Origin: Acidobacteriota bacterium
GTDB taxonomy: Bacteria; Acidobacteriota; Holophagae; Holophagales; Holophagaceae
DNA: 64,000 nucleotides
Reading direction: 5' to 3'
Assembly (NCBI GenBank): GCA_016192145.1
Contig: JACPUT010000002.1
Coordinates: 496,001 to 560,000 of the forward strand
Below the pieces are notes generated by a model. It had not been told where the DNA came from and searched no databases. It saw nothing but the letters and a program-made list of their open reading frames with translations. Shown here one piece after another: positions 311 to 59,435 of this stretch. A program made the position numbers and the translations under genes. Position 1 is the stretch's first letter. Every line of letters begins with the position of its first letter.

Positions 311-374
311 GGCCGCAGGCTGGAGGCTGGAAGTCGGGAACTGCCTCCGGTCTCCAGCCTCCAGCCTGGCGGCC
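311..374. repeat. Palindromic repeat element E1 (GGCTGGA-unit family)
   Basis: The left arm (311-332) has two AGGCTGGA-type units. The right arm (351-374) is its reverse complement apart from one inserted base and an end mismatch. The spacer is about 18 nt. It lies between the divergent metK and lipoprotein genes. The same unit builds elements E8 (30139) and E10 (44164). Confidence 0.75.
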
Positions 375-461
375 ACGGGTACCTTGCCCGGGGGATGGCC
401 CCCCCTGTATCGTGGGGGACCACCCCAAAGGCCCGAAGACCCCCAGTTGTGGAGGATCCCC

Positions 462-1589
462 ATGAAGCGCGCCCTGCGAACCACCCTCTTGGCCGCCGTG
501 GCCTCGATGGCCCTCGTGTTCACCGCCTGCAAGCGGGAAGACCCCCAGATCCGGGAGTTGACCCAGAAGGCCGCCGAAGCCGATAAGGCCGGGCAGCAGT
601 TGGGCCAGGCCGGCAGCGAGCAGCAGAAGAAGCTGGCCCAGGCCGGCGTCACTGACGTTCGCGTGAACGCGGAGACCATGCAGCTCTCCGAGGAGCAGAA
701 GAAGGCCCTCGAGGAGCGCATCAAGAACGAGAAGAACAGCTCCTACCAGGCCCTCCTCCAGGAAGTGCTGGACAAGGACAAGGAGATCAAGGATCTGAAT
801 GGCAAGATCGCCAAACTGAAGCAGGACCTGCCCACCCCCGATCGGGCCCGTGAAGGGGACAGCCACTACGGCATGGCCATCAAGTTCCTGAAGAAGAAGG
901 GCGTTTCCGACCCCGAGGCCCGCAAGCTCGTCTCCAACGTGAACATCATGGAGAAGCTGGCCCCCGGATTCGAGGTGTACCACTTCTACGCCAACGGCGT
1001 GTACGGCACCTGGGTGGCCAAGGGCCGCGCCAAGATCACCCCCTCCGAGCTGCAGAAGCAGGAGCGCGAGAAGATCGAGGGCGAGCGCGACACGGCCGTG
1101 GCCGAGAACGAGAAGCTCCAGGAGGACGTGCTGGATCTCGAGGACCAGAAGAAGCGCCTCTCCGAGGACATCGAGGGCCTGCGCGCCGAACGCTCCACCC
1201 TCATAGAGGAGCGCGCCAAGCTCCAGGGCGAGAATGCCGAGCAGCTCGGCAAGCTGAACAGCCTGCATTACATCGTGGGCAACCGCGACGCCTTGAAGAA
1301 GGAGGGCATCATCGAGATCCCCGTCTTCGCCAAGGATCGAGCCGGCAAGAACTGGCGCGACGACCTCTTCACCCTGAGCCTGGACCTCCGCTCCAGCGAG
1401 GTGATCACGATCAAGGCGGCCGACATGAACCTGAAGAAGATCGGCAAGGTGAACGTGGTGCCCGGTTCCTACGTGAAGGATGAGCACTACAAGCTCGTCA
1501 TCTCCGAGGACAAGCAGACCGCCACCATCACGCTGCTGAAGAAGGAACGCTTCAAGAACGACAAGGTGGTCTTCGCCGTCGCCGATTAG
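462..1589 (+). CDS. Putative coiled-coil lipoprotein
   Basis: A 375-residue exported protein of unknown function. It starts at an ATG eight bases after a GGAGG ribosome site. The N-terminus has a positively charged, hydrophobic signal segment ending in FTAC (Cys at about residue 23), a plausible although non-classical lipobox. Residues about 30-130 and 205-270 are rich in Lys, Glu, Gln and Leu with heptad-like spacing and should form long coiled coils. The C-terminal third (from about 280) is more globular, with predicted beta character. It is monocistronic, ending just before a very strong hairpin at 1600-1641. A cell-envelope structural or tethering role is possible but not shown. Confidence 0.8.
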   Translation: MKRALRTTLLAAVASMALVFTACKREDPQIRELTQKAAEADKAGQQLGQAGSEQQKKLAQAGVTDVRVNAETMQLSEEQKKALEERIKNEKNSSYQALLQEVLDKDKEIKDLNGKIAKLKQDLPTPDRAREGDSHYGMAIKFLKKKGVSDPEARKLVSNVNIMEKLAPGFEVYHFYANGVYGTWVAKGRAKITPSELQKQEREKIEGERDTAVAENEKLQEDVLDLEDQKKRLSEDIEGLRAERSTLIEERAKLQGENAEQLGKLNSLHYIVGNRDALKKEGIIEIPVFAKDRAGKNWRDDLFTLSLDLRSSEVITIKAADMNLKKIGKVNVVPGSYVKDEHYKLVISEDKQTATITLLKKERFKNDKVVFAVAD

Positions 1590-1599
1590 GCTTTTCACC

Positions 1600-1641
1600 G
1601 CTCGCAAAAATGGCCCGCGAACGCGGGCCATTTTTGCGAGC
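1600..1641. terminator. Perfect 20-bp stem terminator-like hairpin
   Basis: Two perfectly complementary 20-nt arms separated by AA. The stem contains an A5 run on the left and a T5 run on the right, so it could act as an intrinsic terminator in either direction. It starts 10 bp after the lipoprotein stop codon. Confidence 0.8.
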
Positions 1642-1786
1642 TGGGGAAGGCGCCGAGGGCGAGCGGCGACCTGACCCGAGGTAGGTTCCTCGGACCCTCA
1701 ATTGAGGCTGGAAATCCCCCCGGGGAGTGCCTATCGTCAGGTCCACACACCCTTTGTCACTGTCCTGTTTCACCACGAGGTCACCC
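1642..1786. other. Short promoter-containing gap
   Basis: Between the strong 1600-1641 hairpin and the lipase start lies 145 bp of GC-rich DNA with an in-frame extension of the lipase reading frame (from 1727) that lacks signal-peptide character. No clear promoter could be called. Confidence 0.3.
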
Positions 1787-4357
1787 ATGTCCCGTCTTCA
1801 ACGCGGCGCCCTCCTCGGGCTTCCCCTTCTCGTCCTGCTGGGTTGCGGCGGGAGCACCGACGTAAAGAGCGTCCCGCCCCCCAATGCCGGGGATGCTCCC
1901 ACCACCAGCGGAACCTACCCCGTCTTCGACGCCTCCGCCGGAGCGATTCCCCTCCCCAACATCCTGGCGACGGCCACGGCGAAGGATCCCCTCACGGGCA
2001 CCTTCCTCACCTCCGATCCCGTGGTGCGGCCTGCCAATACCCCCCTGACGCCCCCCGAAGCCCTGGCCTACGTGCATCACCGTGAGACGGGCGCCGTCAA
2101 TGCCGTGTCGGGCCTGAACGCCCCCATCTACATCCGCTTCAGCAATCCGGTGGATCCGGCGAGCCTCGCGGGCAACGTGAAGGTGTTCCAGCTCACGGCC
2201 GATGCCGCCACGGGTGGCCAGACCGAGAACAACGCCCTGGGTTTCACGGACATCACGGCGATGTTCACGATCTCCTACAAGGCCGGCACCACCGATCTGC
2301 ACGTCTTCCCCAACTTCCCCCTGACGCCCGGCACCAAGTACGGCTACTTCGTGAAGAACGGCGTGAAGGACGCGGCCACGGGGCTGCCGACCATCACCCC
2401 CCTGCAGATGACGGCCATGAAGTCGCCCGTGCCGATCACGGGCCTGCTGGCGGGCCTCGAGCCCATCCGTGCCGACAAGGTGAGCGGCCCCAACATCCTC
2501 CTGCGCGGCTACAAGCAGTTCATGGATGACGCCATCACCGCCACCGCCACCACGGGCATCACGTCCTTGGGCGAGATCACCCTCCTGGGCCGCTTCATCA
2601 CCACCATCGCCGGCTTCACCCTGCCCGATCCCGTGGGCGCGCCCACCACCCGCGTGCCCGTGGAATCCACCCTCCGCCAGTTCGCCGCCGGCGCCACCTT
2701 GGGCGGGCTCTCCGGCAAGACCTGGAGCAACGCGGCCACCATCCCCGCCAACACCCTCCCCAGCGGCCCCTTCACGACCTTCGTCAAGGGCACCCCCGTG
2801 AGCCCCGACGCCTACTGGACGGCCGTCATGGGTTCCGCGACGGCCGCCCCCGCCTCCGTGGGCCTCGTGGCCCTGGGCACCTTCGCCAGCGGCGATCTGA
2901 ACATCGATCCCGTGGTCGCCAAGGCCAACGCCGCCACCATGAACCTCACGGGCACCGCCGGAGCCTGGAACCCCGGCGCGGGAGTCACGCAGGCCTTCCG
3001 CAACGCGGGCGGCGTGCTCACCGGCTACTACCACACCGATCGCACCCTCAACTTCGTCTACATCGCCCCGGATCCCGCCACCATCACCCGCCCCGCCAAC
3101 GGCTATCCGATGGTGATCTACCAGCACGGCATCACCTCCCAGAAGGAGACGGTGATCGCGCTGGCTGGCACCCTCACGGCCCAGGGCTACGCCCTCATCG
3201 CCATCGACCTGCCCCTTCACGGCCAGAACCAGGTGCCCACCCACACCGCCGGCGCCCAGTGGGGCCAGGACTTCATGGCCATCGGCGCTCCGCTGGCCAC
3301 CCGCACCAACCTGCAGCAGGGCGTGGTGAACCTCTCCCGCCTGGAGTTCGTCGTGAAGACAGGCGGCCTCAGCACGGCCCTGGCCGGCGCCGGGCTCGCC
3401 ACGAGCACGCCCGACATCACCACCTCGCCCAGCAACATCAAATACGTGGGCGTGAGCCTCGGCGCCATCGTCGGCTCCTACTACTTGGCCTCCAACACCA
3501 CCTTCTCCTATCCCGCCGGCCCCTCCGGCCCGCCCTACATCCAGGCCACCCTGAATAACGATATGAAGGGCTTCCTGAACAACCCCGGCGGCCGCACCGC
3601 CTACCTGATCCAGAACAGCCCCGCCTTCGGCCCCACGGTGGATGCCGGCCTCGCGGCCGTGGGAATCGTGAAGAACACCCCCACCTACCACAGCTTCTTC
3701 CAGGTGACCCAGACCATCGTGGATCCCGCGGATCCCGCCACGATGACGAACCCCCTGGCCGCCGGGCTGCCCAGCCGCCTCTCCGGCCGCGTGGCGGTTC
3801 AGGAAGCCACCTCCACCACCTTCGATCCCGTTACGGGCGCACCCACCAACGGCGACCTCGTCATCACCAACCCCTACACCCGCTTCTTCGGCAACTCCCT
3901 GGGCGGCCGCGCCATCCTCGGCGGTGCCGGCGCCGCCGTCGGGCCCAACTTCAGCCAGCTGGCCTACACCGCCGGCGGGACCTACATGGCCCCGACCCCG
4001 GGAGGCCTCGTCGCCACGGCCCACGCCGCGGGCGTGGTGGGCAGCCCCTTCATGCTCACCCTGAGCCCCGGCCCCGCCCCCAAGGTGATCAACGCCGCGA
4101 CCTCCGTGCTGGATGCCGCACCCAAGGAAGGCTACTTCCAGTTCGACCAGACGGGCATCGGCCACGCCTTCATCCTGAACCCCACGAACCCCGTGGCCAT
4201 CGCCCTGGGCCAACGCCAGCTGGTCTACTGGCTGGGCTTCGGTCTCGTGGTGGATCCCACGCAGCAGGGCGCCACCCTGCCCATCGTGCAGCCCGCCTCC
4301 CTGCCGGAGTCCATGATCTTCGACGCCCCCAAGGCGATCACGATCCTGGCGCACTGA
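1787..4357 (+). CDS. Lipase-like alpha/beta-hydrolase lipoprotein
   Basis: An 856-residue exported protein. The start chosen is the ATG at 1787, after CACGAGG and directly before a lipoprotein signal (hydrophobic run then LVLLGC, Cys at about 20). The N-terminal half contains FDASAGAIPLPNIL and repeated Thr/Ala/Pro-rich beta segments resembling the N-terminal domain of bacterial virulence-factor-type lipases (Pfam Lipase_bact_N). The hydrolase part has YQHGITSQKE (oxyanion region), the strand ALIAIDLPLHGQ and the nucleophile elbow GVSLG at about residue 560. A late GIGHAF may supply the catalytic His. It probably hydrolyses esters or lipids at the outer membrane or outside the cell. Substrate is unknown. 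It is followed by a bidirectional hairpin at 4373. Confidence 0.8.
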   Translation: MSRLQRGALLGLPLLVLLGCGGSTDVKSVPPPNAGDAPTTSGTYPVFDASAGAIPLPNILATATAKDPLTGTFLTSDPVVRPANTPLTPPEALAYVHHRETGAVNAVSGLNAPIYIRFSNPVDPASLAGNVKVFQLTADAATGGQTENNALGFTDITAMFTISYKAGTTDLHVFPNFPLTPGTKYGYFVKNGVKDAATGLPTITPLQMTAMKSPVPITGLLAGLEPIRADKVSGPNILLRGYKQFMDDAITATATTGITSLGEITLLGRFITTIAGFTLPDPVGAPTTRVPVESTLRQFAAGATLGGLSGKTWSNAATIPANTLPSGPFTTFVKGTPVSPDAYWTAVMGSATAAPASVGLVALGTFASGDLNIDPVVAKANAATMNLTGTAGAWNPGAGVTQAFRNAGGVLTGYYHTDRTLNFVYIAPDPATITRPANGYPMVIYQHGITSQKETVIALAGTLTAQGYALIAIDLPLHGQNQVPTHTAGAQWGQDFMAIGAPLATRTNLQQGVVNLSRLEFVVKTGGLSTALAGAGLATSTPDITTSPSNIKYVGVSLGAIVGSYYLASNTTFSYPAGPSGPPYIQATLNNDMKGFLNNPGGRTAYLIQNSPAFGPTVDAGLAAVGIVKNTPTYHSFFQVTQTIVDPADPATMTNPLAAGLPSRLSGRVAVQEATSTTFDPVTGAPTNGDLVITNPYTRFFGNSLGGRAILGGAGAAVGPNFSQLAYTAGGTYMAPTPGGLVATAHAAGVVGSPFMLTLSPGPAPKVINAATSVLDAAPKEGYFQFDQTGIGHAFILNPTNPVAIALGQRQLVYWLGFGLVVDPTQQGATLPIVQPASLPESMIFDAPKAITILAH

Positions 4358-4372
4358 ACCTGATCTGAAGCC

Positions 4373-4410
4373 ACACGAGGAGGGCGGGGGCGACCCCGCT
4401 CTTCTCGTGT
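4373..4410. terminator. Bidirectional terminator hairpin between convergent genes
   Basis: ACACGAGGAGGGCGGGG and its near reverse complement flank a GCGA loop (15 of 17 pairs plus two wobble pairs). It fills the whole gap between the lipase gene (+) and the acyltransferase gene (-). Confidence 0.75.
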
Positions 4411-5712
4411 TCAGGGGAGGCGGGAAAGCTCCGGGCAATGGGCCAGCAGCTGGGCCCTGGCCTCCAGCAGCGCGGGCACCTTCGGGTGCCGGCGGGCCAT
4501 GAAACCCCGCACGGCCTGGACATCCTCGGCCACGCGCTCCGTGAGGGGCAGGCTGAACCAGGCGGCGAGGAGGCCCAGGGGCAGCCACGCCCAGGAGCCG
4601 AGGTGGATGGCGCGGAGGCCCAGCCAGGTGAGCCCCGCGGCCCAGAGGGGCAGCAGGAGGATGCCCCCGAGGAGCTTCACCGTGGCGGTGACATCCACCT
4701 CATCCGTGAGGCGGCCCGCCAGCCAGCCGACGAGGCGGTACATGGGCCAGAAGGGGAGCCCGAAGGGCAGGCAGGCGAGGAGGGAGGCCAGGCGGAGCAG
4801 GGCCTTGGGAAGCCACCGGGCCGCTTCCGGAAGGCCATAGGCATGGCCGATCTGATCGGGGCGGAGGCCATGCCGCTGGAGCCAGGCCTGGATGCGATCC
4901 ACGTCCTCCCGGAGTCCGGCCCGGAAGGCCGGGTCCAGGCCGCCGAGGTAAGCCTCCAGGGCCTTCACCCGCGCGCGCAGACCCTCCAGATCCGCCGTGG
5001 TCCGGGGGGCCTCGGCCAGCAGCCAGCCGATGTCCTGGGCCAGGCGCAGGCGCTCGGCCTCGGGGCCGTGCAGGGTGAGGGCGCGGAGGGCATCCCGCAT
5101 GCGGGCCGTGAGGACCTGCACGCTCTCGGGATCGGCGCCCGGGAGATCCCCATGGGGGATGGGCTCCCCCACCCGCAGCAGGGCGTTGTGGCGGAAGAGC
5201 TCCCGATCCCCGTAGACGAGGCCGGCGGGCACCAGGGCGGGGCGCGTGGGGCTGCTCAGCACCATGCGGGCGGCACCTGTCTTGAGGGGCGCGAGGTCAT
5301 GGCCGCCGTGGCTGATGCCCTCGGGGTAGATGCCCACCACCTCCCCGGCCTCGAAGGCGCGGTGCACGGCGCTGAAGGTGGCCTGGATGGCGGCCTGCCG
5401 CTGGGCCTCCGAGGCGCCCTCGGGCAGATCCTGGGCGCGCTGCACGGGGATGGGACGGAAGAGGGCGATGAAGGGCCGAAGGGGCAGAAGCTTCCACAGC
5501 GTGGCCTTGGCCACGAAGCGGGGCGCCCGCTGCAGCAGGGCCGTCACCACCAGGGGATCCAGCAATCCGTTGGGGTGGTTCAGCACCAGCAGCACGGGCC
5601 CCTCGGGCAGGGCGGGGCCTTCGCGGCGGAGCTGGCGGAACCAGAGCCGGCCCGTGGCGCGGGCGAAGGCCTTGAGGGCGGTGCTCACGGGAACCTTTCG
5701 TGGCGGGCCCAT
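4411..5712 (-). CDS. PlsC-type 1-acyl-glycerol-phosphate acyltransferase family protein
   Basis: A 433-residue membrane-associated acyltransferase likely to transfer an acyl chain to a glycerophosphate lipid precursor. Residues 45-53 read NHPNGLLDP, the variant HxxxxxD block I seen in larger PlsC/GPAT-like proteins. GIYPEGISHGG at about 150 is the substrate-binding block (EGxS/T). Two or more hydrophobic segments lie in the last third (about 310-400). The upstream ATG at 5712 has AGGA directly abutting it. An in-frame GTG at 5688 has GAAAGG at better spacing and may be the true start (425 residues). It is convergent with the lipase gene. Confidence 0.85.
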   Translation of the reverse strand: MGPPRKVPVSTALKAFARATGRLWFRQLRREGPALPEGPVLLVLNHPNGLLDPLVVTALLQRAPRFVAKATLWKLLPLRPFIALFRPIPVQRAQDLPEGASEAQRQAAIQATFSAVHRAFEAGEVVGIYPEGISHGGHDLAPLKTGAARMVLSSPTRPALVPAGLVYGDRELFRHNALLRVGEPIPHGDLPGADPESVQVLTARMRDALRALTLHGPEAERLRLAQDIGWLLAEAPRTTADLEGLRARVKALEAYLGGLDPAFRAGLREDVDRIQAWLQRHGLRPDQIGHAYGLPEAARWLPKALLRLASLLACLPFGLPFWPMYRLVGWLAGRLTDEVDVTATVKLLGGILLLPLWAAGLTWLGLRAIHLGSWAWLPLGLLAAWFSLPLTERVAEDVQAVRGFMARRHPKVPALLEARAQLLAHCPELSRLP

Positions 5713-5747
5713 TCCTGGCTGGCCGTCGATCCGGAGGTGAATGGCCT

Positions 5748-5874
5748 AACGCAGAGGCGCGGAGGCGCGGAGGCGCAGAGGAAGGAGGGGCCGCCATCTT
5801 CTCTGCAACCACGGGCATCAGCGATTCCTAGCCCTGCCTTTCTCTGCGCCTCCGCGCCTCTGCGCCTCTGCGTT
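5748..5874. repeat. Palindromic repeat element E2 (GCGGAGGC-unit family)
   Basis: The left arm (5748-5785) is four or five copies of an 8-bp unit G-C-[AG]-G-A-G-G-C. The right arm (5836-5874) is its reverse complement at about 36 of 38 positions. The spacer is about 50 nt. A further partial unit continues to 5880. It lies between two minus-strand genes. E7 (17226) has the same unit. Confidence 0.85.
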
Positions 5875-5902
5875 CTGCGTTTTTTATCGAACGAATTCGG
5901 GT

Positions 5903-7135
5903 TCATGCCGCCTTCTCCCGCCCCCGGGCCCACCAGAGTGCCAAGCCGGAGAGAAGGATCGCGGGAATGGCGATGAGCATGGCCCGGCCGAGCGCTTCAC
6001 CGGTGGCCATCCCGGCGCCCTGCATGGCGTCACTTCGCCAGCCCACGAATTTCGGGCTGATCGCATCGCCCAGGAGGTGGATCAGGAACACGTTGATGGC
6101 GATCCCGGTCGCCCGTACCGAGGCGGGGAGGCTGCTCACGGTGAGCGCGTTCACGGGGCTCGTGTTGATGAAGAGGAGCAGCATGCCCGCGAAGAAGAGG
6201 GCGTAGACCATTCGGAGGCTGTCGGCCCCCAGGGCGAGGGCCACCACGGGGCCGGCGGCCAGCAGGGTGAGCCCGCTGATCCACATGCCCGCGTCGGGGA
6301 AGCGCTTCTGCATCCGATCCGTGAGGCTGCCGCCCAGGAAGGTGCCCACGATGCCCGTGATCACCGCGATGCCGCCGAACACCGTGCCCGCCTGGCCCGT
6401 GCTCACGTCAAACTTCCGCTGCAGCAGCGTGGGCCCCCAGTGGGAGAGGGCGCCCATGGCGAAGGTGTAGGCCACGTAACTGCCCGTGCAGGCCAGCCAC
6501 ACGCGGTTGCGGAAGATGGCGCCGAGGCGTTGGCCGAAGGTGAGCCCGGGGGCCAGATCCTGGACGCGATCCATGCCGCCGCGCACGGGGTCCTTGAGCA
6601 GCATCATGCGCACGGCGAAGAACAGCCCCGGCAAGCCCGCCACGAGGAAGGCCGCGCGCCAGCCCCAGTGCTGGGCCACGAGCCCGCCCAGGCCGTAGCC
6701 GAAGGCGCTGCCCACGGGGATGGCGAGGTAGAACCAGGTGAACTTCGCGGCGCGCTCATCCTCGGGCACCACGTCCGCGAGGATGGCGGGGCCCAGCGTG
6801 GCGTAGGCGGCCTCGCCCACGCCCACGAGGGAGCGCGTGAAGAGCAGGGCGGGATAGGAATGCACGAAGGCCGCGCCCACCGTGGCGAGGCTCCACAGCG
6901 CCACCCCCAGGGCCACGAGCTTGGGCCGGTGGTAGCGATCCGCCAGCCAGCCGAAGACGGGGGCCGAGATCATGTAGACGACCACGAAAACGAAGGGCAG
7001 CGTGCCCAGCTGCCCGTCCGTGAGGTGCAGGTCGCGACCCAGGGGTTCGAGCACGGCCGCCACCACGTAGCGGTCCAGGTAATTGAGCAGGTTGATGCCC
7101 GTCAGGAGGATCAGGAGTCGGGTGCTGGTGCGCAT
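5903..7135 (-). CDS. Spinster-like MFS transporter
   Basis: A 410-residue inner-membrane transporter with about 12 hydrophobic segments. It opens with LLTGINLLNYLDRYVVAAVL, the helix-1 signature typical of Spinster-like and related MFS permeases. GWLADRYHR at about 60-70 is the MFS loop 2-3 motif (GxLaDRxxr). SLVGVGEAAYATLGPAILADV is the characteristic helix-4 segment of the Spinster group. The start is the ATG at 7135. The substrate cannot be read from sequence; lipid or organic-anion efflux is possible. It stands alone on the minus strand, with a repeat element downstream and a gene remnant upstream. Confidence 0.85.
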   Translation of the reverse strand: MRTSTRLLILLTGINLLNYLDRYVVAAVLEPLGRDLHLTDGQLGTLPFVFVVVYMISAPVFGWLADRYHRPKLVALGVALWSLATVGAAFVHSYPALLFTRSLVGVGEAAYATLGPAILADVVPEDERAAKFTWFYLAIPVGSAFGYGLGGLVAQHWGWRAAFLVAGLPGLFFAVRMMLLKDPVRGGMDRVQDLAPGLTFGQRLGAIFRNRVWLACTGSYVAYTFAMGALSHWGPTLLQRKFDVSTGQAGTVFGGIAVITGIVGTFLGGSLTDRMQKRFPDAGMWISGLTLLAAGPVVALALGADSLRMVYALFFAGMLLLFINTSPVNALTVSSLPASVRATGIAINVFLIHLLGDAISPKFVGWRSDAMQGAGMATGEALGRAMLIAIPAILLSGLALWWARGREKAA

Positions 7136-7371: not shown

Positions 7372-7426
7372 AAAGCTGGGCACAGAGGACACGGAGCGCC
7401 CTCTGTGTCCTCTGTGTCCTGCTTTC
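7372..7426. repeat. Palindromic repeat element E3 (CACAGAGGA-unit family)
   Basis: The left arm (7372-7396) and right arm (7401-7425) are near-perfect reverse complements built from the 9-bp unit CACAGAGGA. The spacer is only 4 nt, so this is the most compact element in the window. It lies between two minus-strand genes. E9 (41094) uses a closely related unit. Confidence 0.85.
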
Positions 7427-11391: not shown

Positions 11392-11548
11392 ATCCACAGA
11401 TTTCACAGATTACACAGATTTAGAGGAGGGGCCTCTGCGCCGGGCGCAGGAACGAGCGGGTTGAGGACCAGCGGGCCGCCATTTGGGCCACCCCACGTCC
11501 CTTCCGGGCGCCAACCCTTGATCTGTGTAATCTGTGAAATCTGTGGAT
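11392..11548. repeat. Palindromic repeat element E4 (CACAGATTW-unit family)
   Basis: The left arm (11392-11419) consists of three 9-bp CACAGATT[TA] units and the right arm (11521-11548) is its perfect 28-bp reverse complement. The spacer is about 100 nt and shows no gene. Arms are A+T-rich in contrast to the high-GC spacer. It sits between the divergent holin-like and Ada-like genes, so it lies in or next to both promoters. Confidence 0.9.
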
Positions 11549-12480: not shown

Positions 12481-12641
12481 AAAAAGAAAAGAAAACCAGT
12501 GATGAACAGTGATGAACGGTGATGGAGTACGGAGTGTCGATGGGATCGGCCCAAGGATGGCCTGGGTCGCAGTGCCTCGAGTCGGCGATCACCGTTCATC
12601 CCTTTTCATCACTGTTCATCCCCGGTTGCTTTTGCTTTTCT
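12481..12641. repeat. Palindromic repeat element E5 (GATGAACRGT-unit family)
   Basis: Left arm 12481-12524: an A-rich tail followed by 10-bp GATGAACAGT/GATGAACGGT units. Right arm 12587-12640 is the reverse complement with one extra unit. The spacer is about 60 nt. It lies 6 bp after the Ada-like stop codon and 11 bp before the alkA start. E11 at 51818 has the same unit and the same A-rich outer tail, so the two are true relatives. Confidence 0.85.
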
Positions 12642-13561: not shown

Positions 13562-13871
13562 GGGAACGCGAAGAGCGCGAATGCGCCTGCGGCGCGCGAA
13601 GAGCGCGAAGGGTGTTCGGGCGGCGCGCTTGAACACGCCTTCGCGGGCCTCGTGCCCCGGAAGGCTCCGCTGGGGCCGGGGCCCCGCCGCTTTCCAGGCC
13701 AGGGGCCTGGGTGTTCCGACCCAGCCCGGGCCCTCCCTTCCCGGGGCGGGTGCCTGCGGCGCTTCGGGGCGCCACCCGCACCCGCCCCGGGAAGCGCACC
13801 GACGGCGTCGGTGCGGGCCTTCGGCCGGAGGGCCCTGTCTGCGGGGGAGCATTCGCGCTCTTCGCGTTCCC
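13562..13871. repeat. Large palindromic element E6 with nested stems (GCGCGAA-unit family)
   Basis: Perfect 23-bp inverted ends (13562-13584 and 13849-13871) contain the units ACGCGAAG and GCGCGAAT. The left end repeats once more (13591-13612). The 264-bp interior holds a nested 16-bp perfect stem (13738-13753 with 13778-13793) and several shorter GC-rich hairpins, and no credible gene. It occupies most of the 350-bp gap between the convergent alkA and SulP genes. E12 (57249) uses a similar GCGAAT unit. Confidence 0.8.
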
Positions 13872-17225: not shown

Positions 17226-17327
17226 GGGCCTGAAAAGCATCATGCAGAGGCGCAGAGAAAAGCGGGATGCGGAGGGTCTTTCCTCTGCGCCTCCGCGCCT
17301 CTGCGTTGAGCTTTTCTCTCAAGGCCC
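17226..17327. repeat. Palindromic repeat element E7 (GCAGAGGC-unit family)
   Basis: Left arm 17226-17260 and right arm 17281-17327 are imperfect reverse complements containing GGGCCT outer ends, an AAAGC block and 8-bp GC[AG]GAGGC units. The spacer is about 20 nt. It separates the phosphatase gene (17343-18182) from a duplicated C-terminal fragment of that gene (17124-17216). Same unit as E2. Confidence 0.8.
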
Positions 17328-30138: not shown

Positions 30139-30306
30139 TGAGGCTGGAGGCTGGAGGCTGGAGGCTGGAGACTGGAGACTGGAGACGGGAGACGGGAATT
30201 CGGGCGGTCGGATGAACCCGGATCCTGGCGGCACACCCGAAGGATCCGAGTGGGGCTTGGGCTGGCATGAAGCCTCCGGCCTCCAGCCTCCAGTCTCGAA
30301 CCTGCC
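30139..30306. repeat. Palindromic repeat element E8 (GGCTGGA-unit family)
   Basis: The left arm (30139-30196) is a run of 7-bp units GGCTGGA, then ACTGGAG and ACGGGAG. The right arm (about 30271-30306) carries the inverted units with a few substitutions. The spacer is about 75 nt with no gene. It fills the gap between convergent genes, starting just after one stop and touching the other, so it may also serve as a terminator. Confidence 0.8.
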
Positions 30307-41093: not shown

Positions 41094-41235
41094 AACCACA
41101 GAGGTCACAGAGGGCACAGAGGAGGACCGGTTGATCTGGATCGAAGCGTTTGCGGATGGCGAAGGAGACCGAGGGACGCGGCCATCCCTTGGGTGCCTTC
41201 GGCTTTCCTCCGTGCCCTCTGTGACCTCTGTGGTT
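41094..41235. repeat. Palindromic repeat element E9 (CACAGAGGK-unit family) inside an operon
   Basis: The left arm (41094-41123) and right arm (41206-41235) match as reverse complements at 29 of 30 bases, in three 9-bp units of the type CACAGAGG[TGA]. Weaker complementarity continues outward by some 15 bp. The 80-nt spacer contains no gene. It lies between moxR and the DUF58 gene, which families of this cluster are expected to cotranscribe. Confidence 0.9.
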
Positions 41236-44163: not shown

Positions 44164-44299
44164 GGAGACTGGAGGCTGGAGGCTGGAGACCGGAGGCTGG
44201 AAGCGGCGCGGCGCCAGAGGCGCCGGCCCCATCTCGTGGTGCGGCCTCCGGCCGCAGCGATTTCCCGCCTCCGGTCTCCAGTCTCCAGCCTCCAGCCTA
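44164..44299. repeat. Palindromic repeat element E10 (GGCTGGA-unit family)
   Basis: Left arm 44166-44201 and right arm 44264-44298 are reverse complements at most positions, built from GGCTGGA and GACTGGA units. The 60-nt spacer contains two further perfect stems (GGCGCC-AGA-GGCGCC and GCGGCC-TCC-GGCCGC). It begins two bases after the sulfurtransferase stop. Same family as E1 and E8. Confidence 0.8.
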
Positions 44300-51817: not shown

Positions 51818-51897
51818 AAAGAAAACCGGTGATGAACAGTGATGGCACTTCGACCCACCATCCCTGTTCATCACTGTTCATCACTGGTTGATCTTTT
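51818..51897. repeat. Palindromic repeat element E11 (GATGAACAGT-unit family)
   Basis: Left arm 51818-51845 and right arm 51858-51897 are reverse complements apart from an extra unit and a 2-base indel, with a 12-nt spacer. The arms comprise an A-rich end (AAAGAAAACC) and GATGAACAGT units. The unit and the A-rich end match E5, 39 kb away. The rest of the 392-bp gap (51743-52134) contains a weak minus-strand frame but no gene I trust. Confidence 0.88.
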
Positions 51898-53026: not shown

Positions 53027-54310
53027 ATGCTCGCCCGCCGCCTCCTCGCCCTCCTGGCCCTGCTGGCCGTCCCCTTCACCTTCTGGCTCCTCCGCCGCAA
53101 GCAGGCCAAATCCCTCGTGCCCCAGCCCCGGGGCATCGTATTGGGCATGTATACCGGGGACCCCAATTACATCTACACCCGGGAACTGCGGCGCATCCAG
53201 GAGACCGGGGCCACCTGCGTGACCCTGCAGGCCATTTACCGCATGGACACGGGCCACAGCAATTCGGTGCATCGGCATCCCACCAGCAGCCCCACGGAGG
53301 CGGCCCTGCTGGAGAACTTCAAGATCGCCCGGGGCCTGGGTCTGCGCGTGATGTTCTTCCCCACCATCAACCTCAAGGATGAGAAGGAGAACGTCACTTT
53401 CTGGCGGGGCAACATCGAGCCTTCCGATTGGGAGGCCTGGTGGCGCAGCTACACGGTCTTCAACATGCGCCTGGCCACGCTCGCGCAGCAGGGGGACGTG
53501 GAATGGTTCTCGCTCGGCACCGAGCAGGCCAGCAGCCACCGCTTCCCCGATCACTGGCGGGCGCTGGCGAAGGAAGTCCGCAAGGTCTACAAAGGCAAGC
53601 TCACTTACAGCGTGAACTTCGACAGCCACGACACCTTCACCTTCGGCGACGCGCTGGATGTGATCGGCATGAACACCTACGACCCCATCGCCAAGTACGA
53701 CGACTACCCGAGCGACGATCAGATCCGCGACGCCTGGTGGTGGATCGTGGCCAAGGCCCGCACGCTGCGCGCCCGCTTCGATCGCCCGGTGATGATCACG
53801 GAGGTGGGCTATCCCAGCGTGGCCCACGCCCACGTGGGGCCCTGGGACTTCCGCACGGACAAACCCACCGATATCGCCCTCCAGGATCACCTCCTGAAGG
53901 GCACCTTCAAGGTGCTGCGCCACTGGTCGGATGGCGACGCCGTCTTCTACTACCTCTATGGTGAAAATCTCGGCGATCACAATGGTGATGGCTCCCAAAA
54001 GGAGCCCGGCGGCCTGGAGGATCGCACCTATGCCGTGTGGGGCAAGCCCGCGGAGGAGACGCTGAGGGAGTACTTCGCCCAGCCCATCTGGGAGGGGCAC
54101 ATCACACCCAAGCGGGAGGACACCGACGAGGCCGTGCTGCAGACCCTCGTCAGCCACGCCCGGAAAGCGCGGGATTATCTGGACTACGAGGAACCGGAAT
54201 GGGTGGCCTCCTGGCGCCGGGATCACCCGGAAGTCTGGGCCAAGGCCATGGCCGTCCTCAAGGCGGAACCCCCTCCCGCCAAGCGGATCCCCAAGGGGCG
54301 GGAACGCTAG
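53027..54310 (+). CDS. Glycoside hydrolase-like TIM-barrel protein (GH113-like)
   Basis: 427 residues from the ATG at 53027 (CTGGAG upstream). An N-terminal hydrophobic signal or anchor (about 4-22) suggests export. The TIM-barrel contains WFSLGTEQ (Glu166, acid/base candidate), VIGMNTYDP and MITEVGYPS (Glu259, nucleophile candidate) in the order known for GH113-type mannanases and related GTA-like glycosidases. A Trp-rich substrate groove (WWWIVAKAR) follows. Substrate not determined. Confidence 0.78.
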   Translation: MLARRLLALLALLAVPFTFWLLRRKQAKSLVPQPRGIVLGMYTGDPNYIYTRELRRIQETGATCVTLQAIYRMDTGHSNSVHRHPTSSPTEAALLENFKIARGLGLRVMFFPTINLKDEKENVTFWRGNIEPSDWEAWWRSYTVFNMRLATLAQQGDVEWFSLGTEQASSHRFPDHWRALAKEVRKVYKGKLTYSVNFDSHDTFTFGDALDVIGMNTYDPIAKYDDYPSDDQIRDAWWWIVAKARTLRARFDRPVMITEVGYPSVAHAHVGPWDFRTDKPTDIALQDHLLKGTFKVLRHWSDGDAVFYYLYGENLGDHNGDGSQKEPGGLEDRTYAVWGKPAEETLREYFAQPIWEGHITPKREDTDEAVLQTLVSHARKARDYLDYEEPEWVASWRRDHPEVWAKAMAVLKAEPPPAKRIPKGRER

Positions 54311-54435
54311 CCGGCCTCTGGCGGATTTACTTGCAACGACTGCGGATCTGACAGGGAATGGGGCCGTCCGACCGGAACTTGCCGAGCCCATCCGCCCTTC
54401 CGATGAGATCCTGAAGACTCCGGGGAATTCCCATC

Positions 54436-55179
54436 ATGTCCATCACCTACAACCAGGGTCGGCCGCACCTCGAGGAGCCCACGAAGACCGTGCTCCTCGT
54501 GGAGGATGATCGCGCCACCCAGAGCTTCCTCAACCGGGGCCTCAAGGGGCTCAACGGGTTCCGGGTGCTGTTGGCGGGGCATGGCCAGGAGGCCCTGGAC
54601 ATCCTCACGCGCGAAGAGGTGAACGTCCTGGTCACCGATCTGCAGATGCCGGTGCTGGATGGCTACCAGCTCATCGGGGAGGTGAGCGCGCGTTACCCGC
54701 ACATCCCCGTCATCGTGGTGACGAGCACCCCGCCGGAGGAACATGGCTATGCCCCGTTCCGGTTGGGGGCCATGAGCCTCTTCGCCAAGCCCCCGCGCCT
54801 CTCGGCGCTGATGGACGAGATCCGGGCCGCCGCGGCCATGCCCACGGACGCCGCCATCCGCGGCCTCTCCCTGGCCAGCCTCCTGCAATTGCTCCACTGG
54901 GAACGGAAGAGCTGCACCCTCGTCGTCCGGGCCAAGGAGGGCCTTGGCCTGCTCTACATCCAAGAGGGCGCTCTCATCCACGGAGCCTTCCGGGACAAGG
55001 AGGGCATCCAGGCCGTCTTCGAGATCCTCGGGTGGGAGGACATCCACGTGGAGATGGTGAGCACCTGCCGGGTGGAAGCCACGGTATCCGATCCACTCGA
55101 GGAACTCCTCATGGATGCAGCCGTGGCGAGGGATCACAAAAAAGCACAAGCGCTGGCTCAGGGCGAGGGGATGGAATAA
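54436..55179 (+). CDS. Response regulator with REC and DUF4388 domains (first of tandem pair)
   Basis: 247 residues. A receiver domain covers about 17-135 (VLLVEDDRATQSFLNRGLKG; phosphoacceptor Asp68 in LVTDLQMPVLDGYQ). The C-terminal domain (about 145-230) contains LASLLQLLHWERKSCTLVVR and GLLYIQEGALIHGAF, the DUF4388 (PatA N-terminal-like) fold common in delta-proteobacterial and acidobacterial signalling. It has no DNA-binding domain, so the output is probably protein interaction, for example in gliding, polarity or cyclic-nucleotide pathways. The next gene encodes a paralogue. Confidence 0.88.
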   Translation: MSITYNQGRPHLEEPTKTVLLVEDDRATQSFLNRGLKGLNGFRVLLAGHGQEALDILTREEVNVLVTDLQMPVLDGYQLIGEVSARYPHIPVIVVTSTPPEEHGYAPFRLGAMSLFAKPPRLSALMDEIRAAAAMPTDAAIRGLSLASLLQLLHWERKSCTLVVRAKEGLGLLYIQEGALIHGAFRDKEGIQAVFEILGWEDIHVEMVSTCRVEATVSDPLEELLMDAAVARDHKKAQALAQGEGME

Positions 55180-55303
55180 TCCGCTGCGGGGAAGGCTGTC
55201 TCGCGGCGTGAATGGCCCCTTCCGAGCGGTGATCCTGTTATCTTAAGGCGATGTCTCCTGTCCGGCTCCTGTCGCGCCCCGTGGCTCCCTCCGAGGTGGA
55301 GGG

Positions 55304-55990
55304 GTGAAGACCATTCTCGTGGTGGACGATGACCGGGCGACGCTGCAGATCGCCAGCCGGGCCCTGCTCTCCCTGAAGGAGCTCGCGGTCGTGACGGCGG
55401 AGAATGGCGCCCTCGCCACGAAGATCCTCGCCGAGCAACCCGTGGACCTGCTGGTCACCGATCTGCAGATGCCCGTCATGGGCGGCTACCAGCTTCTGGC
55501 CTACGTCAGCGAGCGGCACCCGAGCCTGCCCGCCATCGTCATCACGAGCTTCCTCGACCTCGACACCTGGGGCCTCGCCATGGAACTCGGCGCCCTGCGC
55601 GTACTCCCCAAGCCCGTGATCCCCAACATGCTCCAGCAGGAGGTGAAAACCCTCCTGGAGCGTGAACCCGAAGGCCTCACCCGGGGCCTCGGCGTGGGCA
55701 GCTTCCTCATGCTCATGCACTGGGAGAAGAAGCACTGCACGATGACGGTCACGAGCCGCGGCAAGGTGGGCATGCTCTACGTGAGCCAGGGCGACCTGAT
55801 CCACGCGACCTACCGGGATCGCGAAGGCGAAAAGGCGGCGTTGGACGTGCTCACCTGGGATCGCCCGGCCATCACGTTCGTGGAAGCCTGCCGCGTGGAA
55901 CGCACCATCGCGCTGGACACGCCCGGGCTGTTGATGAAGGCGAGCCTGCATAAGGACGAGAAGCGGGCCGAGGACAAAGCCGCCGGCTGA
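55304..55990 (+). CDS. Response regulator with REC and DUF4388 domains (second of tandem pair)
   Basis: 228 residues from the GTG at 55304 (GTGGAGGG upstream). REC domain about 1-120 with VVDDDRATLQIASRALLSLK and Asp53 in LVTDLQMPVMGGYQ. The DUF4388 domain follows (SFLMLMHWEKKHCTMTVTSR, GMLYVSQGDLIHATYRDREG). It is clearly paralogous to the preceding gene (same order, LQMPV core, HWE and DLIHAxxR blocks) but the sequences have diverged. The gap of 124 bp contains TTATCTTAA, a possible promoter -10 region for this copy. Confidence 0.88.
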   Translation: MKTILVVDDDRATLQIASRALLSLKELAVVTAENGALATKILAEQPVDLLVTDLQMPVMGGYQLLAYVSERHPSLPAIVITSFLDLDTWGLAMELGALRVLPKPVIPNMLQQEVKTLLEREPEGLTRGLGVGSFLMLMHWEKKHCTMTVTSRGKVGMLYVSQGDLIHATYRDREGEKAALDVLTWDRPAITFVEACRVERTIALDTPGLLMKASLHKDEKRAEDKAAG

Positions 55991-56105
55991 CCGTGCCGCG
56001 CAGGCTCATGTTCCATGCGGGTTCACAGGTTTTCGCTTGCGCGATTCGCGGGCGCTGTCTTAGGCTTCTCCCTTCGACAATTTGGTTTTCGCGTCAGGAG
56101 CGCCC

Positions 56106-57248
56106 ATGCTGAATAAGCCCCGCCTCTTGACCCCCGGCCCCACTCCACTCCTGCCGGAGGGTCTTTCCGCCCAATCGCTTGCGACGGTGCATCACCGTAC
56201 GCCGGCCTTCAAGGCCCTGTTCCGGCAGGCCCTCGATGGATTGCGCCGCTTCTACCGCCTGCAGGCGGGTGAGGAGGTCGTGATCCTGTCCGGCAGCGGC
56301 ACCGCCGCGCTGGAGGCCGCCTTCGTGAACGGCGTCGCTCCGGGGGACACCGTGCTCGTGGCCCACGCCGGCAAGTTCGGCGAGCGCTGGGTGAAGATCG
56401 CCAAGGGCCACGGCGTGCAGGTGCTGGAGCTGAAGGCGCCCTACGGCGAGACCTTCACCCCTGAAGCCCTCGCCGCCGTGCTCAAGGAAGCGCCGAAGCT
56501 GGCCGCCTTCTGCATCCAGGAACACGAGAGCAGCACGGGCGTGCGCCACGATGTGAAGGCCCTGGCCGCCGTTGTGAAGGCCGCGCAGCCCGACGCCCTC
56601 ATCCTCGTGGATGCCATCACGGGCGTCGGCGTGCACGACATCCGCCTCTCCGATGGCTTCGACGCCCTCATCTGCGGAAGCCAGAAGGCCCTCGGCATCC
56701 AGCCGGGCCTCGCCTTCCTCGCCCTCTCGCCCCGCTACCTCGCCCAATTGGAAAAGCCCCACCTCGGGCGCTTCTACCTGGACCTCCGCGCCGAGCTGAA
56801 GGCCCACGCCGACAGCGGCACCGCCTGGACCCCCGCCATCGGCCTCGTGGCCGCCCTCAAGGCGGCGACGGATTGGGTGGATGGCATGGGCGGCGTGGAA
56901 GCCCTCATCGCCAACGCCGACCTGCAGGCCCGAGCCTTCCGCGCCGCCCTCGCCCAGTGGGGCCTGCCCGGCTTCGCGAAGGCCCCCGGCAACGCCCTCA
57001 CGGGGGTCACGGTCGAAGGCAGCAACGCCATCCTCAAGACGCTCCGCGACCGCTTCGGCCTCTCCCTCGCCAACGGCCAAGGGGAACTGGAGAACCACAT
57101 GGTCCGAGTCGCCCACCTCGGCTACACCGACAGCCTCGACACCCTCATGGTCATCCAGGCCCTCGAACTCGCCTTCCGCATCCACGGCGTCCAGATCCAG
57201 GCCCCCGGCGGCGAAGCCGCCCAGGCCGTGCTCGCTTCAGCCAACTGA
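56106..57248 (+). CDS. Class V aminotransferase (serine-pyruvate/alanine-glyoxylate type, possible SerC role)
   Basis: 380 residues from the ATG at 56106 with AGGAG upstream. KPRLLTPGPTPLLPEGL and HHRTPAFKALF open the fold, LSGSGTAALEAAF binds PLP phosphate, DAITGVGVHDIRL has the ring-stacking Asp, and ICGSQKALGIQPGLAF has the Schiff-base Lys194. This subclass includes serine-glyoxylate, alanine-glyoxylate and the archaeal/Thermotoga-type phosphoserine aminotransferases. Directly upstream of serA in the same orientation, so it likely makes phosphoserine (SerC role) in serine biosynthesis; this is inference from context. Only element E12 lies between the two genes. Confidence 0.85.
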   Translation: MLNKPRLLTPGPTPLLPEGLSAQSLATVHHRTPAFKALFRQALDGLRRFYRLQAGEEVVILSGSGTAALEAAFVNGVAPGDTVLVAHAGKFGERWVKIAKGHGVQVLELKAPYGETFTPEALAAVLKEAPKLAAFCIQEHESSTGVRHDVKALAAVVKAAQPDALILVDAITGVGVHDIRLSDGFDALICGSQKALGIQPGLAFLALSPRYLAQLEKPHLGRFYLDLRAELKAHADSGTAWTPAIGLVAALKAATDWVDGMGGVEALIANADLQARAFRAALAQWGLPGFAKAPGNALTGVTVEGSNAILKTLRDRFGLSLANGQGELENHMVRVAHLGYTDSLDTLMVIQALELAFRIHGVQIQAPGGEAAQAVLASAN

Positions 57249-57342
57249 GGATCGCGAATAACGCGAATAAAAGCGCGAATGACGCGAATCAATACCAGGT
57301 TCCCATTCGCGTCATTCGCTCCATTCGCGTTATTCGCGATCC
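57249..57342. repeat. Palindromic repeat element E12 (CGCGAATAA-unit family) in the serA leader
   Basis: Left arm 57249-57289 and right arm 57305-57342 are reverse complements except for one 3-base indel and two substitutions. They consist of 9-bp CGCGAAT-based units. The spacer is 15 nt. It starts at the aminotransferase stop and ends 19 bp before the serA ATG, leaving only TTCGGAG as a free ribosome site, so the hairpin would sit in the serA mRNA leader. Confidence 0.9.
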
Positions 57343-57361
57343 AAATCCATTCGGAGTAGAC

Positions 57362-58924
57362 ATGCGCATTCTCGCTTGTGACGGCATTCATGAAGATGGC
57401 CTCCAGCTCTTCCGCGCGGAAGGGTGGGAGGTGATTCCCTCGGAGCCCATCAAGGATCCGAAGTCCCTGGCCCAAGCGCTGGATCATGCAGACGTGCTGC
57501 TGGTCCGCAGCGCCACGAAAGTGCCCGCGGAGGTCATCCATGGCGCCTCGCACCTGCGCGTGATCGGCCGCGCCGGCGCCGGCGTCGACACCATCGACGT
57601 GGACGCGGCCACGGAGTCCGGCATCGCGGTGATGAACGCGCCGGACGGCAACACGCTGGCGGCCGCGGAACAGGCCCTGGCTCTGCTCTTTTCACTGGCC
57701 CGCCACGTGCCCGCCGCGGACGCGGGGATGAAGGCGGGCGAATGGCCCAAGACGGGCCTCACGGGCTTCGAGCTGGAGGGGAAGAACCTCGGCGTCATCG
57801 GCCTGGGCCGCATCGGCGCCACGGTGGCGCGCAAGGCCAAGGGCATCGGCATGGAGGTGGCGGCCTTCGACCCCTTCCTTCCCGAGGCGGCGGCGGGTCG
57901 CCTGGGGGTGCCCATGATGGACCTGGAGTCGCTGCTTGGCTGGGCGGACGTCATCACGCTCCACATCCCCCGCACGAAGGAGACGACGAACCTCCTGGAC
58001 GAAGCGCGGCTCAAGAAGATGAAGAAGGACGCCTGCCTCATCAACGCGGCCCGGGGCGGCCTCGTGGATGAGGCGGCCCTGCTGAAGCTGTTGGAGAAGG
58101 GCCACCTGCGGGGCGCCGCCCTGGATACCTTCGTCACCGAGCCCCTGCCCGCGGACTCGCCCCTGCGCCAGAATCCCCGCCTCATCCTCACGCCCCACCT
58201 GGGCGCCAGCACCGGCGAGGCGCAAAAGGCCGTGAGCGTCATCCTCGCGCGCCAGATCATCGACTTCATCAAGACGGGCGCCGTGGCGGGCTGCGTCAAC
58301 CTGCCCCCGCTCTCGCCCGAAGCCGCCGTGGAGGTGGGCCCCTGGATGCCGCTCATGACGGCGCTGGGCAAGCTGGCGGCCCGCCTCGTGCCCGCCCCCA
58401 CCAAGCTGCAAGTCACCTACGCCGGCCGCACAGACAAGCTGGACCCTCGCCCCCTCACGCGCCTCCTGGTGGCGGGCCTGCTCGCCAATGCCTCCGGCCA
58501 CGTGACCCCCGTGAATGCCTTGGCTGAAGCCACGGCCCGCGGATTGGAAGTGGCGGAAACCCACGGCGGAGATGGCGATGGCTTCGACCGGCTCGTGCGG
58601 TTGCGCATCGAGGGAGCGGGGGGCGTCCGCGAAGTGGAGGCCACCTTGCATCGCGGTCCCCGCGTCGTCCGCCTGGATGGCGTGGAACTGGACTTCGATC
58701 CCCGCGCCCACATCCTGCTCATGCGCAACGAGGATCGCCCGGGCGTCATCGGCCTCGTGGGCAGCCACCTCGGCGCCGCCGGCATCAACATCGTCAACTT
58801 CGCCCTGGGCTCCACGGGCCACGGTCAGGCCCTCGCGGCCATCACAGTGGATCGCACCGTGCCCGACAAGCAGGTGATCGGGCTGCGGTCCATTCCCGGG
58901 ATCCTCGGGTTGGAGATGGTGTGA
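57362..58924 (+). CDS. serA: D-3-phosphoglycerate dehydrogenase (long form with ASB and ACT domains)
   Basis: 520 residues from the ATG at 57362. Oxidises 3-phosphoglycerate, the first step of serine synthesis. The NAD-binding core has VGVIGLGRIGATVARKAKG (near residue 145) and the catalytic set VRSATKVPAEVI, GRAGAGVDTIDVDAATESG, RGGLVDEAALLKLL and LTPHLGASTGEAQ. After residue about 310 come the allosteric-substrate-binding domain and, from about 440, an ACT domain (ILLMRNEDRPGVIGLVGSHL), so feedback control by serine is expected. It follows the aminotransferase and overlaps the GxxExxY gene by one base (TGATG). Confidence 0.95.
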   Translation: MRILACDGIHEDGLQLFRAEGWEVIPSEPIKDPKSLAQALDHADVLLVRSATKVPAEVIHGASHLRVIGRAGAGVDTIDVDAATESGIAVMNAPDGNTLAAAEQALALLFSLARHVPAADAGMKAGEWPKTGLTGFELEGKNLGVIGLGRIGATVARKAKGIGMEVAAFDPFLPEAAAGRLGVPMMDLESLLGWADVITLHIPRTKETTNLLDEARLKKMKKDACLINAARGGLVDEAALLKLLEKGHLRGAALDTFVTEPLPADSPLRQNPRLILTPHLGASTGEAQKAVSVILARQIIDFIKTGAVAGCVNLPPLSPEAAVEVGPWMPLMTALGKLAARLVPAPTKLQVTYAGRTDKLDPRPLTRLLVAGLLANASGHVTPVNALAEATARGLEVAETHGGDGDGFDRLVRLRIEGAGGVREVEATLHRGPRVVRLDGVELDFDPRAHILLMRNEDRPGVIGLVGSHLGAAGINIVNFALGSTGHGQALAAITVDRTVPDKQVIGLRSIPGILGLEMV

Positions 58925-59376
58925 TGGAAAGGAAAACTACTAACGCGGAGGAAAGCGGAGAAAAGCCGGAGGTGAGCGGAGGAGGACTCGAGTTGGAACT
59001 GGAGGCGCTGACCGAACGGATCATCGGTTGTGCCATCCAGGTTCAGCGAAGGCTTGGGCCGGGCCTTCTGGAAGGCACCTACCAGGTTTGCCTCGCCCAC
59101 GAACTCCGGAAGGAAGGTCTAGCGGTTGAAACCGAAGTCCCGATCGACCTTAAATATGACGACCTTGTGATCGAGCGGGCGTACCGCCTGGACCTCCTGA
59201 TCGAAGGGACCGTCGTCGTGGAACTCAAAACAACGGATCGGCTAACTGAGGCCCACCTGGCTCAGCTCTTTACCTACCTTCGATTCGCAAACAAGCGACT
59301 GGGCCTCCTCCTCAACCTTTGGCGGTGGCCCCTCAAAGACGGTGGAATCAAGCGGGTACTCAATTCCCACCCTTGA
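58924..59376 (+). CDS. GxxExxY protein (PD-(D/E)xK nuclease-like) embedded in palindromic element E13
   Basis: 150 residues; ATG at 58924, overlapping serA's TGA as TGATG. Motifs: GLLEGTY (Gly47-Tyr53), the family name pattern, preceded by GCAIQVQRRLGPG; then RLDLL (Asp90) and VVELKTT (Glu100, Lys102), the D...ExK core expected for a PD-(D/E)xK nuclease (Pfam PF13366/TIGR04256). Residues about 4-20 (KTTNAEESGEKPEVSGG) are encoded by the left arm of the palindrome, and the stop lies 9 bp before the right arm. The arrangement suggests the gene and its arms form one unit. The biochemical role of the family is not established. Confidence 0.88.
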   Translation: MERKTTNAEESGEKPEVSGGGLELELEALTERIIGCAIQVQRRLGPGLLEGTYQVCLAHELRKEGLAVETEVPIDLKYDDLVIERAYRLDLLIEGTVVVELKTTDRLTEAHLAQLFTYLRFANKRLGLLLNLWRWPLKDGGIKRVLNSHP

Positions 59377-59435
59377 CCCATCTTGCTCCGTTCACCTCCG
59401 GCCTTTCTCCGCTCACCTCTGCGTTAGTAGTTATT
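58933..59435. mobile_element. Palindromic element E13: inverted arms flanking the GxxExxY gene
   Basis: Left arm 58933-58983 and right arm 59385-59435 match as reverse complements at roughly 44 of 48 aligned positions. Units are 10 bp of the form GCGGAG[GA]AA[AG]. The arms lie on either side of the GxxExxY coding region. No terminal transposase-type motif and no target-site duplication was recognised, so its mobility is an inference from structure and from the twelve gene-less relatives in the window. Confidence 0.75.

Follow-up and report, generated by a model that had tools for sequence, protein, structure and literature searches.

Intergenic palindromes with tandem-unit arms in a Holophagaceae genome: probable small mobile elements associated with GxxExxY and IVP protein genes

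RESULTS

Palindromes with Unit-Built Inverted Arms in the Intergenic Gaps of the Window

The stretch of DNA studied here (64,000 bp; bases 496001–560000 of contig 1, C1, of a 3.8-Mb Holophagaceae genome, G000; hereafter the window) contains thirteen named intergenic palindromes. At each of them (13/13, by direct reading), the left arm is built from tandemly arranged units of 7–10 bp and the right arm is its reverse complement, as the sequence-only reading of this DNA had described. Twelve of the sites were also recovered by a strict detector that demands an inverted-arm score of at least 24 together with tandem periodicity in both arms, while the remaining site (13562) reached an arm score of 47 with a tandem score under the threshold. 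The spacers between the arms had been described as 4 to about 400 bp long; the plan holds, but the 404-bp spacer of site 58933 is not empty and corresponds to a previously overlooked open reading frame (ORF) of the GxxExxY family. In the following list, G001 denotes the congener that we used for comparison, the named relatives of G000 being Holophagaceae (Acidobacteriota), including Geothrix; solo palindromes are those that lack a gene, and a strand is given where one applies. The unit period sorts the sites into those with 7-bp units (311, 30139, 44164; IVP type) and those with units of 8–10 bp (the other sites; GxxExxY type).

311–374: solo palindrome of the IVP type, 7-bp units GGCTGGA (arms 21 bp, score 36, period 7); unit also found in the arms around the genome's IVP gene L114
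5748–5874: solo palindrome of the GxxExxY type, 8-bp units CGCRGAGG (RNA fold, z −11.3); orthologous gap of G001 without the element
7372–7425: solo palindrome of the GxxExxY type, 9-bp units CACAGAGGA, short loop (direct reading and detector)
11392–11548: solo palindrome of the GxxExxY type, 9-bp units CACAGATTW (direct reading and detector)
12491–12622: solo palindrome of the GxxExxY type, 10-bp units CAGTGATGAA (detector, RNA fold); unit as in the palindrome beside the GxxExxY gene L010; absent in G001
13562–13871: palindrome (arms GGGAACGCGAAGAGCGCGAATGC) whose 258-bp spacer contains another, nested palindrome (tandem score below the strict threshold)
17232–17316: solo palindrome of the GxxExxY type, 8-bp units GCAGAGGC (direct reading and detector)
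30140–30297: solo palindrome of the IVP type, 7-bp units GAGGCTG (detector, RNA fold)
41094–41235: solo palindrome, 9-bp units CACAGAGGN, three per arm (detector; RNA fold, z −8.4)
44166–44298: solo palindrome of the IVP type, 7-bp units GGAGGCT (direct reading and detector)
51823–51887: solo palindrome, 10-bp units GATGAACAGT (direct reading and detector)
57249–57342: solo palindrome, 9-bp units CGCGAATRA (RNA fold); unit as in the arms of the GxxExxY genes L012 and L016; the G001 gap holds palindromes of another unit
58935–59432, + strand: full-length element (score 69) with a GxxExxY gene enclosed by arms of GCGGAGGAAA units; its neighbors are serA and a phosphoglycerate-mutase-like gene; gap empty in G001
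58921–59376, + strand: GxxExxY / PDDEXK_3 nuclease ORF, 151 amino acids (TIGR04256, PF13366; conserved D91, E101, K103, Q115, Y119)

Ten local shuffles of the window that preserved dinucleotide composition gave 0, 0, 0, 0, 0, 0, 1, 0, 0, and 0 strict matches, and the paired arms are therefore not reproduced by composition. Our census covered the window and C1:1–400,000. The earlier estimate of about one site per 5 kb is valid for the window, whereas the 42 detector matches in C1:1–400,000, about 30 of which we judged convincing, amount to about one per 13 kb; the remaining matches there are G+C-rich and mostly intragenic. None of the strict matches in the window lies inside a gene as defined by our home-made gene caller, on which all in-gene and gap-orientation calls rest. 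The earlier statement that no coding region is interrupted is thus upheld for the window, but outside of it the unit palindrome at C1:150822 sits within a called gene. Solo palindromes occupy co-directional, divergent, and convergent gaps in a ratio of 27:6:3, and show no bias relative to the background gaps (195:53:48). The arms have common outer ends (AACC, ATCC, or GATTCACC). The palindrome nested in the spacer of 13562–13871 (13737–13794) is G+C-rich and could reflect either a composite insertion or decay.

The Spacer of Site 58933 Encodes a Putative PD-(D/E)XK Nuclease

Judged by its profile matches, the window ORF is clearly a member of the GxxExxY (TIGR04256/PF13366) family: it scored 127 bits against TIGR04256 (cut-off 35) and 125.6 bits against PF13366, PDDEXK_3 (cut-off 22). 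Residues of catalytic type are invariant (D91, E101, K103) or near-invariant to invariant (Q115, Y119). The structural model (pLDDT 88) is predicted to adopt a PD-(D/E)XK fold, and Foldseek matched it best to Cas4 (SSO0001) with a probability of 1.0 and to a Holliday junction resolvase from archaea with 0.98, although the E-values, at about 7e-3, were weak; tRNA-splicing endonucleases were also among the fold matches. A sequence search of solved structures with the GxxExxY protein returned nothing convincing. Within the open-access literature, we found no paper that ties the GxxExxY or the IVP protein to such palindromes, nor any match to the unit strings in relevant papers; the papers found to mention the GxxExxY family concern reverse transcriptases and a virus genome.

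GxxExxY Genes Lie within Unit Arms across Many Phyla

The source genome carries five GxxExxY genes and its congener G001 seven. Inverted unit arms enclose ten of these 12 genes; each of the remaining two adjoins a small palindrome that is itself complete. The same units recur in gene-bearing and gene-less copies: CGCGAATGA is common to the arms of L012 and L016 and to the gene-less site 57249, and CAGTGATGAA to the palindrome beside L010 and the window sites 12491 and 51823.

We extended this analysis to 80 GxxExxY loci drawn from named genomes that span about 20 phyla and include two archaea, to three loci on viral contigs, and to 28 further loci from Holophagaceae; the contig scan was made with a five-sequence alignment, and the sample hence leans to one part of the family. 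With an arm score of at least 32 as the criterion, inverted arms were present at 98 of the 120 scorable, non-duplicate loci (82%), compared with 1.1% of 883 control ORFs of 90–180 amino acids from the same stretches; some of the control ORFs with arms represent other palindromes of the same kind, and an independent position-based control was also run. The arm period was 10 bp at about 60% of the GxxExxY loci, 9 bp at about 25%, and 8 bp at about 10%, and the commonest arm consists of three units (e.g., AACCGCAGATGAACGCAGATGAACGCAGAT). Among 61 Holophagaceae genomes, a three-unit pattern occurred in 22 of the 48 with a GxxExxY gene and in none of the 13 without one (Fisher p 0.002, kinship being ignored), while the reversed pattern was found in none of the 61.

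Three contigs classed as viral in IMG/VR (L021–L023) encode GxxExxY genes within unit arms. The GxxExxY elements of two archaeal metagenome-assembled genomes (MAGs; L075, L076) are 75–78% identical at the DNA level to that of a Brocadiaceae MAG (L082), with homology confined to the element; this likeness, which may reflect transfer or mis-binning, as MAG contigs may be mis-binned, is only a lead.

The 7-bp Class Corresponds to Elements with IVP Genes

The 7-bp GGCTGGA class of the window (311, 30140, 44166), whose members are all gene-less, agrees with the arms that enclose an IVP gene (PF05635) elsewhere in the source genome, and both IVP genes of this genome (2/2) lie within inverted repeats. 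IVP genes are present in 120 of 247 Acidobacteriota genomes, with up to 17 copies. Inverted unit arms were detected at 36 of the 44 scored Acidobacteriota IVP loci, and in 29 of them the period was 7.

Unit Sequences Covary with the Protein That They Enclose

A two-component mobile element with cognate ends should show covariation of end sequence and protein, and this is what we found. Arm similarity rises with protein identity both for GxxExxY (Mantel r 0.49; 94 loci) and for IVP (Mantel r 0.42; 35 loci), in each case beyond all 2000 permutations; for IVP, it is chiefly the pairs with the highest similarity that account for the covariation. Clades of the GxxExxY protein match unit types (CACGGAG/CACGAAG, CGCGAAT, ACAGGAT, CACAGATGAA, CCGGGGAT, GGTGATGAAC). 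The earlier impression of a uniform architecture with varied sequence consequently holds across many phyla, but the variation of the units is not free, as it follows the protein carried.

Presence and Absence at Orthologous Gaps

Related genomes differ in the presence of the element at one and the same gap, as had been suggested for a check of these sites. When the window was compared with G001, the element was missing in three of the four gaps tested (58933, 12491, 5748). In the first of these, the serA stop codon and the start of the gene that follows overlap (GTGTGATGCGC); at the fourth (57249), G001 has palindromes built from another unit. Among the genomes compared at rpoB|rpoC, seven lack the element and two have it in full. 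At ftsA|ftsZ, six genomes have no element and three a full one, G047 has a shortened version, and G038 has a palindrome without the gene. At carA|carB, we counted ten empty gaps, three full elements, and eight gene-less palindromes. The same element is present in the rpoB|rpoC and ftsA|ftsZ gaps of Geothrix genomes: the copies are 82–83% identical, their flanks are unrelated, and homology ends at the arms.

At carA|carB, a comparison was possible for eleven elements whose flanks are similar. Their arms are on average 89% identical within an element, while the same arm is only 71% identical between species, and the units switch among CGCAGAGG, CGCAGATG, CCACAGATT, and CACGAAGAC. These alignments are compatible both with a joint change of every unit in the two arms and with repeated hits on the site. 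Two Geothrix genomes, G004 (L252/L256/L266) and G021 (L258/L268), are identical at ftsA|ftsZ, and a solo palindrome is present at carA|carB in G021 and none in G004. G021 carries this palindrome yet has no GxxExxY gene, which suggests that its carA|carB allele was imported by recombination.

Gene-Less Copies and a Deletion Series

In G006, a GxxExxY palindrome has been captured in the 3′ part of an element resembling the insertion sequence IS5 and has spread with it to about 45 places. We had considered the 50 GxxExxY matches of this genome as a transposition burst of the element itself, and rejected this idea since they are passengers of the multiplied IS5-like element; the GxxExxY copies of G022 likewise share long common flanks. 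We therefore counted the G006 copies solely as evidence for internal deletion with retention of the arms: in the series L184–L213 on contig 1, the gene is cut back variously and the arms are kept. Together with the empty, full, and solo states observed at a single site, this series supports an origin of the solo palindromes by internal deletion.

DISCUSSION

We consider it likely that the palindromes are small mobile elements, falling into two related classes that each combine inverted arms of tandem units with a cognate protein, together with many gene-less derivatives. The first class (8–10 bp units) would carry the GxxExxY PD-(D/E)XK nuclease and the second (7-bp units) the four-helix IVP protein. 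Each rider protein would recognize its own unit array and act on any copy with this unit, both in cis and in trans; internal deletion would give rise to the gene-less palindromes, which would also move in trans. The substrate might be the hairpin or cruciform formed by the arms, which would explain why the two are maintained as inverted copies of each other. Since inverted arms are able to form a hairpin or a four-way junction, a PD-(D/E)XK nuclease is a natural candidate to cut them: an Hjc/Cas4-like enzyme would cleave the hairpin or junction, and repair would put a copy in a new intergenic gap, with the GxxExxY gene being transcribed from host operons. The two-component nature of the element is much better supported than this chemistry, and although cleavage of a DNA hairpin or junction by the cognate nuclease is the exact mechanism that we rank first, ahead of an action on RNA, we hold it to be somewhat less likely than not. 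The previous suggestion of a mechanism-driven structure instead of one expanding sequence is correct insofar as the arms of one element evolve in concert, and it needs to be amended insofar as the elements, being dispersed and mobile and having a cognate protein, are not solely the product of a mutational mechanism.

Several observations weigh against the interpretation as mobile elements. No insertion event was seen directly among the gaps compared, and no target-site duplication of more than 3 bp was detected at rpoB|rpoC, ftsA|ftsZ, carA|carB, or serA|gpm, the age of the insertions limiting this test. The units at carA|carB, which vary with the species, are explained no better by transposition than by concerted change in situ or by repeated replacement. 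For the window units CACAGAGG and CACAGATT, the source genome has no gene-bearing partner with that unit. As to a vehicle between hosts, the carriers include eight plasmids (weak matches) and no phage. Finally, the fold matches of the GxxExxY model are weak, and the all-sense orientation of its gene could also indicate action on RNA.

This last point leads to an RNA-level alternative, in which the arms form an RNA stem that is co-transcribed with the operon and cut by RNase III, and in which the rider acts on RNA while its spread through DNA is incidental or proceeds via an RNA intermediate. Among 37 Holophagaceae GxxExxY loci, the gene lies between two genes of its own direction in 27 cases and between two genes of the opposite direction in none, and it seems that the element either borrows the transcription of the host operon or acts in the transcript; mere promoter borrowing, however, would produce an all-sense orientation equally well. 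Five palindromes of the window fold as RNA with z values from −4.1 to −11.3, and tRNA-splicing endonucleases are among the fold matches. Mismatches between the arms lean toward G:U-compatible changes (131:96), but this lean stems from G/A changes only, and the same is predicted by transcription-linked deamination of C. Precedent exists in the 23S rRNA intervening sequences (IVSs) of the IVP class, which are removed as RNA by RNase III (PMC4990558). Since solo palindromes occupy divergent and convergent gaps at background proportion and the element contains no reverse transcriptase, we regard an RNA-level explanation as unlikely.

A purely mutational origin, with slippage making the units and template switching at quasi-palindromes copying the arms, would require neither an element nor a protein. 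It accords with the first impression of a uniform plan with varied sequence, and with the greater identity of the two arms within an element than of the same arm between orthologous elements at carA|carB. It does not predict the association with two protein families (82% of the GxxExxY loci), the covariation of units and protein, the lack of the three-unit pattern in the genomes without GxxExxY (0/13), the recurrence of one element at unrelated loci, or the outer ends that the arms have in common. The gene–arm association and the covariation largely refute mutation as the sole cause, which we hold to be very improbable; slippage and template switching may nonetheless be the way in which the arms stay alike. 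Still less probable, in our opinion, are host regulatory elements (terminators, mRNA stabilizers, or operon attenuators) that lie beside small nuclease genes by chance. Strong hairpins do occur in operon gaps, some at rpoB/rpoC, ftsA/ftsZ, and carA/carB, but they are patchy among close relatives whose operons are normal where the element is absent, their units differ between species, most gene-bearing copies enclose the gene within the arms, and a search of the window against Rfam matched no family. Practically negligible is a system of the type formed by repetitive extragenic palindromes (REPs), REPINs, and the Y1 transposase RAYT: the many gene-less palindromes, and the small number of protein genes that have them on their flanks (L010, L013, L037, L040), recall it, but the arms are long and unit-built, lack the GTAG/CGTC tag, and are not REPs of 20–40 bp, and the source genome has no Y1_Tnp match (PF01797), the same search being positive in 5 of 14 control genomes.

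If the palindromes are indeed two-component mobile elements, a family annotated only as "GxxExxY protein" gains a likely context and substrate, and a common, apparently undescribed class of intergenic palindromes in many phyla (CACAGATGAACACAGATG..., GGCTGGAGGCTGG...) would be explained. The covariation of units and protein would then amount to a testable recognition code.

The 7-bp class also bears on the 23S rRNA IVSs, whose origin has been called unclear (PMC4990558). These are flanked by palindromic inverted ends around a small IVP gene, are patchy in distribution, and have been called selfish; the IVS of Coxiella has tandem heptamers (GACAGAT) upstream of its ORF and inverted ends of 28 bp (PMC4990558). 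The 7-bp class described here carries the same four-helix protein family (PF05635), and we infer that the 23S IVSs may be members of it. In contrast to the IVSs, the present elements reside in intergenic gaps chromosome-wide, with dozens to hundreds of copies that are mostly gene-less; the majority class carries an unrelated nuclease, and the RNA stem is only predicted. The window sites lie between protein-coding genes, and no insertion in an rRNA gene was encountered among them. We advance with some hesitation the broader proposal, in which we place less confidence than in the two-component element as such, that GxxExxY and IVP elements are two lineages of an unrecognized type of mobile element in bacteria and archaea: the protein would read ends made of unit arrays by a code that changes along with the units, all units of both arms would change in concert so that specificity evolves while the architecture stays, and the 23S IVSs would be IVP elements that landed in rRNA genes. 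This would offer an origin for the IVSs, and scattered repeats and a decades-old puzzle of rRNA inserts would receive one common, testable explanation.

Several known repeats share features with the elements described here. That the sites are unlike REPs, bacterial interspersed mosaic elements, and clustered regularly interspaced short palindromic repeats had been noted before, and our data agree: no Y1/RAYT transposase is encoded in the genome, and the units are contiguous and inverted between the arms instead of forming an array of the latter type. As in REP/REPIN-RAYT systems, many non-autonomous intergenic palindromes accompany a few cognate protein genes flanked by them, but the rider is a PD-(D/E)XK nuclease or IVP, and the arms are arrays of 7–10 bp units. 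At four GxxExxY loci (L160 in G025, L159 in G041, L037, L040), a complete palindrome stands on each side of the gene in place of one enclosing arm pair, a layout known for RAYT genes. Miniature inverted-repeat transposable elements and other insertion-sequence derivatives likewise comprise internally deleted, gene-less copies with the inverted ends of the full element; the unit-array arms, however, differ in sequence from copy to copy, and no target-site duplication of fixed length was found at the gaps compared. The full copies examined contain no DDE transposase gene, their ORFs being GxxExxY and IVP; the genome as a whole was not searched for DDE copies sharing these ends. Short units, in many cases heptamers, are likewise arrayed between genes in the TAACTGA repeats of Beggiatoaceae and the short tandemly repeated repetitive sequences of cyanobacteria, but both are described as direct repeats, with neither an inverted counterpart arm nor a cognate gene.

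Upstream of serA in G001 (L335:2000–2661, G001:C101), two palindromes with CCGCAGATT units flank an ORF of about 150 amino acids that, by eye, is neither GxxExxY nor IVP and perhaps represents a third kind of cargo.

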